DNA of 64,000 nt from Mariniblastus fucicola (GTDB taxonomy: Bacteria; Planctomycetota; Planctomycetia; Pirellulales; Pirellulaceae), in contig NZ_CP042912.1 of NCBI RefSeq assembly GCF_008087665.1, forward strand, positions 4,154,001-4,218,000, in the 5' to 3' direction. The notes under the pieces were generated by a model. The model ran no database searches, was not told the DNA's origin, and saw nothing but the letters and a program-made list of their open reading frames with translations. Every line of letters begins with the position of its first letter. Positions within the stretch are counted from its first letter, which is position 1. Below are positions 40,131 through 44,393 of the stretch, one piece after another. Made by a program: the position numbers and the translations under genes.

Positions 40131-41489
40131 CTAAGCCGCATTGCTTTGTTCGTCGTTCAACGTTTCGGAATCGAAATCGCGTTCCGTGATCAACCGAGCC
40201 GAGCGGTTGAATGTAAAATAGTTCCAGGCCCACTGGAGGAACACCAGTACACGGTTTTGAAACTGAGCCAGCGACATGATGTGTACGAACAGCCAGATCA
40301 ACCACGCAAAAACACCACTGAACTTCAGCTTGCCCAGATCGGCAACTGCGGAACTGCGCCCAATCGTCGCCAAAGCTCCTTTGTCGAAGTATCGAAAAGG
40401 CGAAGCTTTTGACTTGCCATCCAGTTGATTCGCGATCGACCGCCCGACGTACTTGCCCTGTTGAATCGCCACTTGAGCGACTCCCGGCAAAGGCTTTCCC
40501 GATTCGTCGTGGCTCATCGCCAAATCACCAACCACAAAGATTTCTGGATGGTTCACGATCGACAAATCTGCCTCGACCGGTATTCGCCCGCCACGATCGA
40601 CTTCCACGCCCGTAACCGCCGCAATTCTTTTCCCCAACGGGACTCCTGCAACACCCGCGGCCCACAAAACCGTTGGCGTACGAATCTCTGAATGCTGATC
40701 GTCAACCGAAACCGCGACCGAGTTACGATGGATGGCGGTGACATGAGTTCCTGTACGAATCTCGACGCCCAAACGCTGCAACGATTTTTCGGCTTTGCGC
40801 GAGAGCTTTGGATCAAATCCATTGAGAATTCGTTCTTGCCCGTCGACGATGATGATGTTCGCATCGAGCGGATTGATGTTACGAAAATCGTTCTTCAGCG
40901 TTTGCCCGGCCAGTTCCGCAATCGCCCCGGCCAATTCGACGCCGGTCGGCCCGCCTCCAACTACTACAAATGTCATGAGCTCGCGACGGCGGGCCTCGTC
41001 AGACTCCTGCTCCGCAGCTTCAAACGCACCGAAAACTTTCCCGCGAATTTCAGTCGCATCTTCAACTGTTTTTAATCCGGGTGCCAGTTTTTCCCACTCG
41101 TCGTGCCCAAAATAGCTATTTGTCGAGCCGGCAGCAACGATCAGCCAATCGTACTTGATCGTCGCCGCCTGTTCCTGTTCTTCACCCGGTTCAATGTGAT
41201 GGACGACGAGCGAACGCGATGTCGGATCGACCGATTCGACATTTCCCAGCATGACGCCGACGTTTTTCTGGCGTCGAAAAATTGAACGTAGGGGCGACGC
41301 GATATTGGCCGGCGATAGCCCACCGGTCGCCACTTGATAAAGCAACGGTTGAAACAGATGAAAATTCCGACGGTCGATCAGAGTGATGTCCACCGGAGAC
41401 TTTCGAAGCGCCCGAGCGGCATTCATTCCTCCGAAACCACCACCAACGATGACGACATGTTTGCGTGCTTGATTCAAATTCTTACCCAC
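40131..41489 (-). CDS. ndh: Type II NADH dehydrogenase
   Basis: This is a peripheral membrane flavoenzyme that passes electrons from NADH to quinone without pumping ions. The 452-residue product has the FAD motif VVIVGGGFGGMNAARAL (12-28) and the second nucleotide motif FVVVGGGPTGVELAGAIAEL (about 173-192). The FAD-binding signature IFVVGDLAMSHDESGKPLPG and the downstream VAQVAIQQGKYVGRSIANQL are also typical. A C-terminal amphipathic region (VFAWLIWLFVHIMSLAQF, about 393-410) anchors it to the membrane. It converges on the flagellar lipoprotein gene and diverges from the protease gene. Confidence 0.93.
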   Translation of the reverse strand: MGKNLNQARKHVVIVGGGFGGMNAARALRKSPVDITLIDRRNFHLFQPLLYQVATGGLSPANIASPLRSIFRRQKNVGVMLGNVESVDPTSRSLVVHHIEPGEEQEQAATIKYDWLIVAAGSTNSYFGHDEWEKLAPGLKTVEDATEIRGKVFGAFEAAEQESDEARRRELMTFVVVGGGPTGVELAGAIAELAGQTLKNDFRNINPLDANIIIVDGQERILNGFDPKLSRKAEKSLQRLGVEIRTGTHVTAIHRNSVAVSVDDQHSEIRTPTVLWAAGVAGVPLGKRIAAVTGVEVDRGGRIPVEADLSIVNHPEIFVVGDLAMSHDESGKPLPGVAQVAIQQGKYVGRSIANQLDGKSKASPFRYFDKGALATIGRSSAVADLGKLKFSGVFAWLIWLFVHIMSLAQFQNRVLVFLQWAWNYFTFNRSARLITERDFDSETLNDEQSNAA

Positions 41490-41861
41490 TAAATTTCGTT
41501 CTGAACTTTAAAAAATCAAGTTCGGTTTTCGTAAACCCAGTTTGCCAGACCCAGGAACACCGACAAACTGTCAGGATTCAATTCGGTCCTGTCACTTACC
41601 TATTTATTTCAATTTGAGTCCAAATTTTCGACAGCCGAAAGTGTGTTTGCGAACTCACAACCGTATCCATTTTTCTTCCGTGGTTGAGCCGTTTTTTCGC
41701 CAGCTTTGAACCTGCCGGCAAGAGTTGCCGTAAACCGGGAGAAGCGGTTTGGCACGACGCTTGCGATGTCAGGCCGTTGTCCGCAAGACACGTTTTGGGC
41801 CCATCTTTCGTGCGATGCACGATCCCATTTCGACTCTTCGGTTTTAACAGAAGGTGTTTTA
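41490..41861. other. 372-bp divergent region between ndh and the DegP-like gene
   Basis: The region holds the sigma-54 promoter at 41750-41765 and a perfect small inverted repeat CGGCAA-GAG-TTGCCG (41716-41730) directly upstream of it. It is locally AT-rich at 41490-41660. A reading frame starting at 41706 crosses the promoter and encodes no signal peptide, so it is not taken as coding. Confidence 0.6.
41750..41765 (+). promoter_or_regulatory. Sigma-54 promoter for DegP/HtrA protease gene
   Basis: TGGCACGACGCTTGCG matches the consensus TGGCACG-N4-TTGC exactly, with GG and GC at the required spacing. The predicted transcription start is near 41776, 86 bases before the ATG of the protease gene. 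Confidence 0.9.
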
Positions 41862-43352
41862 ATGAAGACTCTTTTAAACAATACACGCCTTGAGAAATGG
41901 ATCGCATTGCCGATTGTCGCAGTGCTAATTCTACCTCAATTGGCTTCCGCTGATACGCTGACTCACCGTACGAATCCGTTTCTGAACAGCGCGCAGACTG
42001 CCGGTATCAATCAACTCGATCCCGACCAATCGGTCGCCCGTGCGAAGGATCTGTCAAACGCTTTTCGAGCCGCTTCAAACAAAGTCCTCCCATCGCTTGT
42101 CGCGATCGAGACTCGCGTTGAAGCTTCGAAGTCATCTCGATCCGGACGCCAGAATCCGTTTGCGCAAAAACCATCTAATCGACCGGCGACGGGAATCGGA
42201 TCTGGAGTCATCATCGATGAATCGGGTGTCATCATCACCAACAACCATGTCGTCATGGACGGCAAGGGCGAGGTGACCGTTCGCCTCAATGACGGCCGCG
42301 AATTCTCTGCTGCGGAAGTTTTGACGGACCCCAAAACTGACATCGCGGTCATTCGCCTTGAAGGAGCCAGCGGTTTGACGGCGACGCCAATGGGTGACAG
42401 TGACAGTGCTGAAATCGGTGACTGGGTGCTGGCTTTGGGTCAGCCGTTCGGTCTCGAAAGCACCGTGACCGCGGGCATTATCAGTGCCAAACAACGCGGG
42501 ATCGGCATGAACGAGCGCGAAAGTTACATTCAAACGGACGCTGCGATCAATCCCGGCAACAGCGGCGGTCCTTTGGTAAATCTCAATGGAGAAATTGTCG
42601 GAATCAATACCGCGATCTCTTCACGTAGCGGCGGCAACGAGGGAATTGGATTTGCCGTCCCGATCAATCTGGCTCGCTGGGTTGGCGGTCAACTGATGAG
42701 CCATGGAACGGTAAAACGAGCCTACATCGGCGTCGGAGTTCAGGAACTCGATGCGACGTTGGCGAACCAGTTCGGAGTTTCTCCCAGAGGCGGCGTGGTG
42801 CTGACGATGGTCCAACCGGATAGTCCAGCCGCGAAAGCCGGACTGAAGACGGGTGATGTTCTGGTTTCTTTTGACAACATCAAGATTTGGGAACCCAGCC
42901 AATTGCAATTGGCTGTCGAGCGTTGCGAACCGGGCCAATCGAAGAAACTGAACGTTGTTCGCAACAAACGTTCGATCAAGCTCTCGATTGTTCCCAACCA
43001 GATTTCGATTGGCAGTTTGGAGATTGCACCGAAAGTTAAACGTAAGGTTCCAGTTTCGAAAGCAACGTCGAGCCTCGGTTTACGAGTTGAGTCGCTCGAT
43101 GCTGAAACCGCAGAACGACTTGGCGTTGACGATATCGACGGCGTCGTCGTAACGGGAATCGCACGAGGCGGTTTGGCTCAGCAATCGGGACTCAAGCCCG
43201 GTTATGTGATCGCGGAAGTTAATCATCGTTCGGTCAAGAACATGGACGAATTTACGGACGCGATGAAAAACGCCGATGGCAAGGACGGTATCCTGCTGCT
43301 GGTTCGAGCCGGCGAGGGAAGTCGCTATTTGGTCCTCAAGTCCCCGGCCTAG
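41862..43352 (+). CDS. degP: Periplasmic serine protease, DegP/HtrA family
   Basis: This protease/chaperone degrades or refolds damaged envelope proteins. The ATG at 41862 is chosen because it gives a signal peptide (MKTLLNN to ASADT, about 1-31) and lies downstream of the sigma-54 promoter. The 496-residue product has the catalytic His129 in ITNNHVVMDG, Asp160 in DPKTDIAVIRL and Ser234 in PGNSGGPLVN. PDZ1 (about 275-360) contains VVLTMVQPDSPAAKAGLKTG. PDZ2 (about 400-490) contains VVTGIARGGLAQQSGLKPGY. All catalytic residues are present. An intrinsic terminator follows. Confidence 0.95.
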   Translation: MKTLLNNTRLEKWIALPIVAVLILPQLASADTLTHRTNPFLNSAQTAGINQLDPDQSVARAKDLSNAFRAASNKVLPSLVAIETRVEASKSSRSGRQNPFAQKPSNRPATGIGSGVIIDESGVIITNNHVVMDGKGEVTVRLNDGREFSAAEVLTDPKTDIAVIRLEGASGLTATPMGDSDSAEIGDWVLALGQPFGLESTVTAGIISAKQRGIGMNERESYIQTDAAINPGNSGGPLVNLNGEIVGINTAISSRSGGNEGIGFAVPINLARWVGGQLMSHGTVKRAYIGVGVQELDATLANQFGVSPRGGVVLTMVQPDSPAAKAGLKTGDVLVSFDNIKIWEPSQLQLAVERCEPGQSKKLNVVRNKRSIKLSIVPNQISIGSLEIAPKVKRKVPVSKATSSLGLRVESLDAETAERLGVDDIDGVVVTGIARGGLAQQSGLKPGYVIAEVNHRSVKNMDEFTDAMKNADGKDGILLLVRAGEGSRYLVLKSPA

Positions 43353-43376
43353 AACAACGGCATTCCAATTCTCACA

Positions 43377-43409
43377 AGCCGTCGCGGCTCAAACTGCGAC
43401 GGCTTTTTT
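43377..43409 (+). terminator. Rho-independent terminator after degP
   Basis: The arms AGCCGTCGC (43377-43385) and GCGACGGCT (43396-43404) form a perfect 9-bp stem followed by a run of T up to 43409. It begins 25 bases after the protease stop codon. Confidence 0.93.
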
Positions 43410-43573
43410 CGCGAACGACGGTACGTTGATCGTCGACTTTCTCAATGGCGCGGTTTCCGTCTTCTGATACTTGGATCGTCTAACATTTCGATACTTCGCA
43501 CTGGAGTTTCACTAACTCAGTTCGTGGTCAATGTGCAAATGTGAGCGGTCCCTGCGCAGCCGCCCATCGGTCT

Positions 43574-43587
43574 AGGCGTCGACGCCT
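43574..43587. promoter_or_regulatory. 14-bp palindrome, candidate enhancer site for hdeD-like gene
   Basis: AGGCGTCGACGCCT is a perfect palindrome about 130 bp upstream of the sigma-54 -24 element, a typical location for an enhancer-binding protein. The protein that binds is unknown. Confidence 0.45.
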
Positions 43588-43718
43588 CGGAGCATTCAGC
43601 CAAACCTTCGCACTTTTCCGCAGGAGTGATCCCGCTATATGCGTCATAGCGCTGCCGCGTCGCACAGTTTTGGCTCGCATTAAGATTCAATTCGCGGTTT
43701 TGAGCCAAAGTTTCGACT

Positions 43719-43734
43719 TGGCACGGCGATTGCA
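43719..43734 (+). promoter_or_regulatory. Sigma-54 promoter for hdeD-like gene
   Basis: TGGCACGGCGATTGCA is a perfect match to the sigma-54 consensus, including the final A. The transcription start would be near 43745, 82 bases before the ATG at 43827. Confidence 0.92.
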
Positions 43735-43826
43735 ACGGAAGCTGCAGCCTGCAGTGGCTGACGTCCGAGTTGAAACCGAGCTGATCACTGCCCGAGGAAA
43801 TTTCACTTTTTAAACGAGCTCCAGCA

Positions 43827-44393
43827 ATGAACGAAGTACTTGCAAACGAAGAAATGCCGAACGGCGATCCAGCTGTTTTCATGAACAAGGTTGCCAAATG
43901 GGGAACCATCATTGGCGGCGTGTTGTGTACGCTGGGCCTGTTCAGTTTGCTGCTGCCGACCGTGATGGCAATCGCGATCGAGATTTGGTTGGCGGTCACG
44001 CTGTTGTGTGTTGGGGCGTCGCTACTGGCGTTGGCATTTCAAAACCGCGGGTACGGCTCGGTGGCGTTCGAAGCGATTTGGGGCACGATCTATGTGATTG
44101 CCGGATTGGCTCTGCTGCTAATGCCGATGTCCGGCGTGATCACGATCGCCTTGATTCTGGGCGTTGTCTTTATTCTCGATGGCATTGGACGAATCATTTT
44201 TGCGTCTCAGGCTTTTGCTACCGAACGCAAAGTTTGGTGGATTTTTGACGGCGTAGTCGCAATCCTGCTCGGCGGAATCATCCTCGCCAACTGGCCAGGC
44301 GACTCGGCATGGATCGTTGGAGTGCTGGTTGGATTGCGTCTACTGTTCACTGGAGCCATCACGATTCTCGTTTCGAGCCTACTGCGAAAGTGA
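43827..44393 (+). CDS. HdeD-like (DUF308) membrane protein
   Basis: The 188-residue product has six hydrophobic segments arranged as three pairs (residues about 24-180), with GSVAFEAIWGTIYVIAGLAL and ALILGVVFILDGIGRIIFAS, the pattern of HdeD/DUF308 proteins. E. coli HdeD is an inner-membrane acid-resistance protein; the function elsewhere is not well defined. The gene stands alone between degP and a convergent sulfatase gene and is led by a strong sigma-54 promoter, suggesting a stress or envelope role. Confidence 0.88.
   Translation: MNEVLANEEMPNGDPAVFMNKVAKWGTIIGGVLCTLGLFSLLLPTVMAIAIEIWLAVTLLCVGASLLALAFQNRGYGSVAFEAIWGTIYVIAGLALLLMPMSGVITIALILGVVFILDGIGRIIFASQAFATERKVWWIFDGVVAILLGGIILANWPGDSAWIVGVLVGLRLLFTGAITILVSSLLRK

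Follow-up and report, generated by a model that had tools for sequence, protein, structure and literature searches.

The question raised by this locus is how the protease gene degP is transcribed in Mariniblastus fucicola. Elsewhere degP is usually controlled by sigma-E and CpxAR, and the earlier note had proposed a sigma-54 promoter for the copy in the window (the whole 64,000-nucleotide stretch analysed here). The sequence, a consensus scan and conservation upstream of orthologs all place a sigma-54-type -24/-12 element, TGGCACGACGCTTGCG, at positions 41750–41765 of the forward strand, where it had been claimed. Scored against the sigma-54 consensus TGGCACG-N4-TTGCW, the element matches at 11 of 12 positions, with the diagnostic GG and GC pairs both intact at the -24/-12 spacing; it had been called a perfect match, but the final base is G instead of A or T. 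The gap between the end of the element and the ATG of degP (41862) is 96 bases by our count, not 97, and AGAAGG, read from the sequence as the likely ribosome-binding site, lies at 41849–41854 (+). By its domain models the gene (41862–43352, +; 496 aa) is a Do-family (DegP/HtrA) serine protease, as had been assigned: the translation carries Trypsin_2 and PDZ domains, the triad motifs and a signal-peptide-like start, and scores 418 bits on TIGR02037, barely above the cut-off of 416.2. A short palindrome, CGGCAAGAGTTGCCG, possibly a chance occurrence, lies directly 5' of the site at 41716–41730, too near to it to resemble a usual enhancer.

Conservation of the GG/GC pair in orthologous upstream regions had been named as one of two observations on which the proposal would stand or fall, and the pair proved to be conserved. 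A first degP search covered 60 genomes including the window's own, of which 41 matched at E ≤ 1e-60; of the matching loci, 30 were examined. Seventeen of these belong to the window's family, and 16 of them have a site of at least 10/12 before degP; in 13 loci of other families, no such site was found outside coding sequence and two were found inside it. The survey was then widened to 241 genomes of the window's family. A kinase profile matched 109 times at E ≤ 1e-80, spread over 100 genomes, and a DegP profile 97 times at E ≤ 1e-140, spread over 95. A kinase of this one family lay within 5 kb of 73 of the 97 DegP matches, with 20 genera represented. In a scan that demanded GG and GC and kept the best site per locus, 60 of these 73 linked loci showed a site of at least 10/12 upstream of degP; the opposite strand of these stretches gave 4, and 50 Markov resamplings gave a mean of 2.2 (maximum 5). 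Sites of at least 11/12 numbered 37, with none on the opposite strand and a mean of 0.14 per 73 resampled regions (about 0.2% per region). The other 25 degP loci (the 24 unlinked matches, window included, plus one further locus, G028) gave 15 sites of at least 10/12, compared with 3 on the opposite strand and 0.5 after resampling. The 13 linked loci without a site include one with almost no upstream DNA (L242). Among 68 linked sites of at least 9/12, positions that the scan had not required were also nearly constant: the A of TGGCA in 68 and the first T of TGC in 67, with the two C of TGGCAC in 62 and 63.

The gene linked to degP in the relatives encodes a histidine kinase with HAMP, HisKA and HATPase_c domains (three kinases scanned) and two hydrophobic segments (three tested). 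An activator accompanies it in 67 of the 73 linked stretches; of the six stretches without one, four reach a contig end (G026, G113, G201, and G061) and two do not (G074 and G073). Receiver, Sigma54_activat and HTH_8 domains were found in the one activator scanned, and D55 and the GAFT motif are invariant in 13 aligned activators. By receiver, sigma-54 interaction motif and Fis-type helix-turn-helix, the relatives' linked activators are of the NtrC type as judged from sequence, and one activator and two kinases fell below the cut-off on their best 25 NCBIfam models, AtoC, NtrC and ZraR included. With respect to the kinase, degP lies before it on the same strand in 46 loci, divergently in 24 and behind it in 3. 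The order degP-kinase-activator accounts for 44 of the 73 loci, a divergent kinase with the activator adjoining for 20, kinase-activator-degP for 3 and the kinase alone for 6. In one locus (L139:5784–7133), a sigma-70 gene separates the kinase from degP, and the sigma-54 site of degP follows the end of the sigma-70 gene.

The linked loci also carry a candidate enhancer. The palindrome GGGGCA-N3-TGCCCC, at 10/12 or better and further upstream than the sigma-54 site, was present in 66 of the 73 linked loci (missing in 7) and in 7 of the 25 others, with a mean of 2.9 and a maximum of 7 in resampled linked regions; it was first found by eye in loci that were later counted too, and those loci are no independent test. 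Its detection needed a degenerate, promoter-anchored score. In a fixed-window count, from which L242 was dropped for its short upstream region, the palindrome was present in 69 of 80 loci whose genome has the kinase versus 2 of 17 whose genome lacks it, although Fisher's 5e-9 is overstated for rows related by descent. A second copy lay 18 bases off in 42 of 71 loci, 17, 19 or 20 bases off in 12 and farther off in 3, and was absent in 14. An exact scan for GSGGCATNNTGCCCC in 36 genomes gave at least 29 loci, of which 5 had a site of at least 11/12 about 124 bp away. These 5 are all degP loci from the genus of the window species, and in two other loci (L086 and L088) a 10/12 site lay no more than 170 bp away.

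We propose that, as the norm in the family, a histidine kinase sitting in the membrane, its sensor extracytoplasmic, would phosphorylate the NtrC-type activator encoded beside degP. The phosphorylated activator would bind GGGGCA-N3-TGCCCC, in many loci present twice at 18 bp, and its ATP hydrolysis would open the sigma-54 complex at degP. In loci ordered degP-kinase-activator, the promoter may raise the regulators as well. As under sigma-E and CpxAR, envelope stress would raise DegP; unlike there, sigma-54 and an ATP-driven activator would do so. The closest comparison that we found is the ZraP-ZraSR system of Salmonella and E. coli, which, in the parts of the article available to us (PMC4987338), likewise combines a two-component NtrC-type activator, sigma-54 promoters and a periplasmic quality-control target beside its regulators, with a divergent layout matching that of part of our loci. 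Their target is the zinc-binding chaperone ZraP whereas ours is a protease, and the zinc link is no part of the comparison. The proteins differ as well: one activator reached 433 bits against the ZraR cut-off of 760, and two kinases reached 156 and 173 bits against the ZraS cut-off of 479. In layout the degP-linked pair resembles ZraPSR, and it has the look of a sigma-54 two-component system directed at DegP.

The window species departs from this norm. A rapid support estimate of 99 backs the 76-row clade that holds its DegP together with 69 linked and 6 unlinked ones; the long end branch of the window DegP leaves its place within the clade uncertain. No kinase ortholog was found in its genome, where the best match covers part of the profile at 205 bits. 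The genome yields 18 strong sigma-54 activator matches, none of the linked type (best 454 bits versus at least 675 for linked ones), and in an activator tree the 18 and 34 linked activators (thinned from 67) lie on opposite sides of a branch with a support of 98. The palindrome is missing at 41450–41749, the stretch where relatives carry it (best 6 of 12), and the sole GSGGCATNNTGCCCC match of the genome (83,469) has no site of at least 10/12 in the surrounding 3 kb. The kinase and activator module linked to degP appears to have been lost from this genome while degP and its -24/-12 site were kept. The earlier suggestion that sigma-54 and an enhancer-binding activator govern degP held for the conserved site, whereas the activator linked to it in relatives is not found here. 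With kinase, activator and palindrome gone and the core promoter kept, we infer that another of the species' own activators most likely drives degP. Our overall reading, drawn from sequence comparison and given a probability of about 75%, is that degP is under sigma-54, through a two-component system as usual in the family and through another activator in the window species, where sigma-54 RNA polymerase would transcribe it from 41750–41765. Several findings weigh against it: 13 linked loci lack the site and 7 the palindrome, the kinase and the DegP pass their cut-offs in fewer than half of the 241 genomes, the kinase family also lies beside other genes, the window DegP is unsurely placed in its clade, and its promoter and that of hdeD show no common enhancer.

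The main competing explanation is that the element is a relic in the window species, degP having passed to another promoter after loss of the two-component system. The absences just described would fit such a history, and at about 50% identity the DegPs found in the same genus are too distant to show selection on the site. We nevertheless regard it as unlikely, because the core at degP still scores 11/12 and because neighbouring and related genes carry such sites too. The next gene (43827–44393, +) encodes a 188-aa HdeD-like membrane protein (DUF308 by domain scan; below the cut-off of the HdeD model), and 92 bases before it a consensus scan located a second sigma-54 element, TGGCACGGCGATTGCA (43719–43734, +), matching at 12/12. 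In 119 family genomes nothing else matched this gene at E ≤ 1e-15, and it was perhaps acquired. Five sites of at least 10/12 occur on the two strands of the window, and the two of at least 11/12 are TGGCACGACGCTTGCG and TGGCACGGCGATTGCA. Moreover, the second Do-family protease of the genome lies behind an hsp20 gene with an 11/12 sigma-54 site. A search of 41480–43900 revealed no sigma-70-like site, compared with 1.2 expected, which is weak evidence.

Sigma-54 sites precede many other stress genes of the window species. In 319 kb of chosen stretches of its genome plus the window, 78 sites of at least 10/12 were counted, a number that gives no rate, since the presence of exact sites or of activators had guided the choice of stretches. 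Of these sites, 21 lie inside called genes and 50 are intergenic and precede one of 49 genes by less than 320 bp. An 80-kb island (266–346 kb; L098–L101) holds 20 of the 50 intergenic sites, two of which touch a called start; many sites there stand before stress genes, those for Usp among them, and the island also encodes two sigma-54 activators. Twenty of the 49 genes, besides the window pair, were scanned with Pfam, and the matches comprised Usp (four, one fused to T2SSE), CsbD, Hsp20 (two), ferritin-like, DUF2383, the S30AE ribosome factor, ClpB, chaperonin, thioredoxin, COX1/FixO oxidase, protein kinase, CBS, TrkA channel, PRC-barrel, YetF and RpoN. As these stress and chaperone genes and the HdeD-like gene also have sigma-54 sites, our best guess for how degP would now be activated is that a wider sigma-54 stress regulon has captured it.

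A convincing enhancer common to the degP and hdeD promoters of the window was not found. Another palindrome, CGTGC-N6-GCACG (at most one mismatch), occurs near sigma-54 sites at L100:6755, 8525, 9914 and 13501 and at L101:8286 and 12577. In all stretches of this genome, 9 of its 11 intergenic copies are near a sigma-54 site and 9 more copies lie inside genes; it may be the enhancer of another activator. It was found upstream of five sigma-54 regions, compared with at most two in 30 resamplings. We rejected it as the degP enhancer: the five regions amount to three distinct places, two of them shared by divergent promoters, and none is at degP.

Another explanation is that the linked system chiefly controls itself, with degP as a neighbour or passenger. 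The order degP-kinase-activator lends itself to this idea, as a promoter before degP would also serve the regulators. We consider it improbable, for where kinase and degP are divergent (24 loci) the counted site is still directed at degP, and in other families the kinase is again paired with DegP in some stretches (L383, L385, and L388). A search of 296 genomes from the order found the kinase in 13 that belong to other families. Twenty further kinase stretches (12 outside the family and 8 inside it) were picked partly for having no DegP match, the 8 inside not having been DegP-linked before; DegP was present in four (L383, L385, L388, and L396). Other kinase neighbours were sigma-70-family factors (L386, L392, L398, and L399) and, in L385, an M50 and an M13 protease. 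Both a palindrome of at least 11/12 and a site of at least 10/12 precede these neighbour genes in L386 and L385; L392 has palindromes only, and L398 and L399 a sigma-54 site only. The sigma-70-family genes L386:9273–9773 and L392:6002–6592 (ECF-type by Pfam) lie directly behind a kinase-activator pair and palindromes, an arrangement that might form a sigma-54 to ECF cascade. In two genomes belonging to the genus of the window species, L398:4130–5314 and L399:2183–3163 mark a second pair of kinase and activator genes; there an 11/12 sigma-54 site precedes the sigma-70-family gene.

The genome of the window species (one contig, 6.57 Mb, 95% complete by estimate) has a single rpoN with all three RpoN domains, and an 11/12 sigma-54 site 50 bases before it (L137:2057–2072) hints at autoregulation. 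Near-consensus matches with at most one mismatch number 290, fewer than those of a reversed control pattern (341), and such counts were set aside as evidence, placement alone being informative. With genes called by a simple codon-usage script, 17 of the 27 exact TGGCACN5TTGCW matches have a gene in the correct direction starting no more than 320 bp downstream, versus 5.65% of random window positions. This placement, together with conservation upstream of degP above both the opposite-strand and the resampled controls, makes it very improbable that TGGCACGACGCTTGCG is a chance match, even though the genome-wide counts show no excess.

Studholme and Dixon (2004) reportedly treat, by their title, the sigma-54 activators of Pirellula strain 1, and may list one beside htrA. 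In Planctomycetia, chaperones, ATP-dependent proteases and UspA have been predicted to be under sigma-54 (PMC12316311), and the main text of that article does not contain DegP, HtrA, COG0265 or COG3247. According to the portions of the articles consulted, a double rpoN mutant of Bradyrhizobium shows changes in htrA among other genes (PMC13207237), an article on the Myxococcus activator Nla28 cites HtrA papers (PMC9765219), and the htrA gene RB12752 of Rhodopirellula baltica is induced by cold shock (PMC2754498). A literature search covering mostly open-access titles and abstracts found no sigma-54 two-component system for DegP, which leaves novelty unproven.

We tentatively suggest that these loci represent a sigma-54 envelope-stress pathway with its own operator, widespread in the family and perhaps ancestral to it, in which DegP would be the main target and, in certain lineages, a sigma-70-family factor or other proteases; in the window species it may have been dismantled, with sensor, activator and enhancer lost, and the remaining degP core promoter taken over by another activator. 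To our knowledge, little is known about how planctomycetes sense damage to envelope proteins. The system supplies a directly testable candidate kinase, activator, operator and target for such sensing. In the window species, the promoter has seemingly outlived the neighbouring regulator, which makes it a case for studying regulatory replacement. The finding would add DegP to the stress genes already predicted to be under sigma-54 in the class (PMC12316311).
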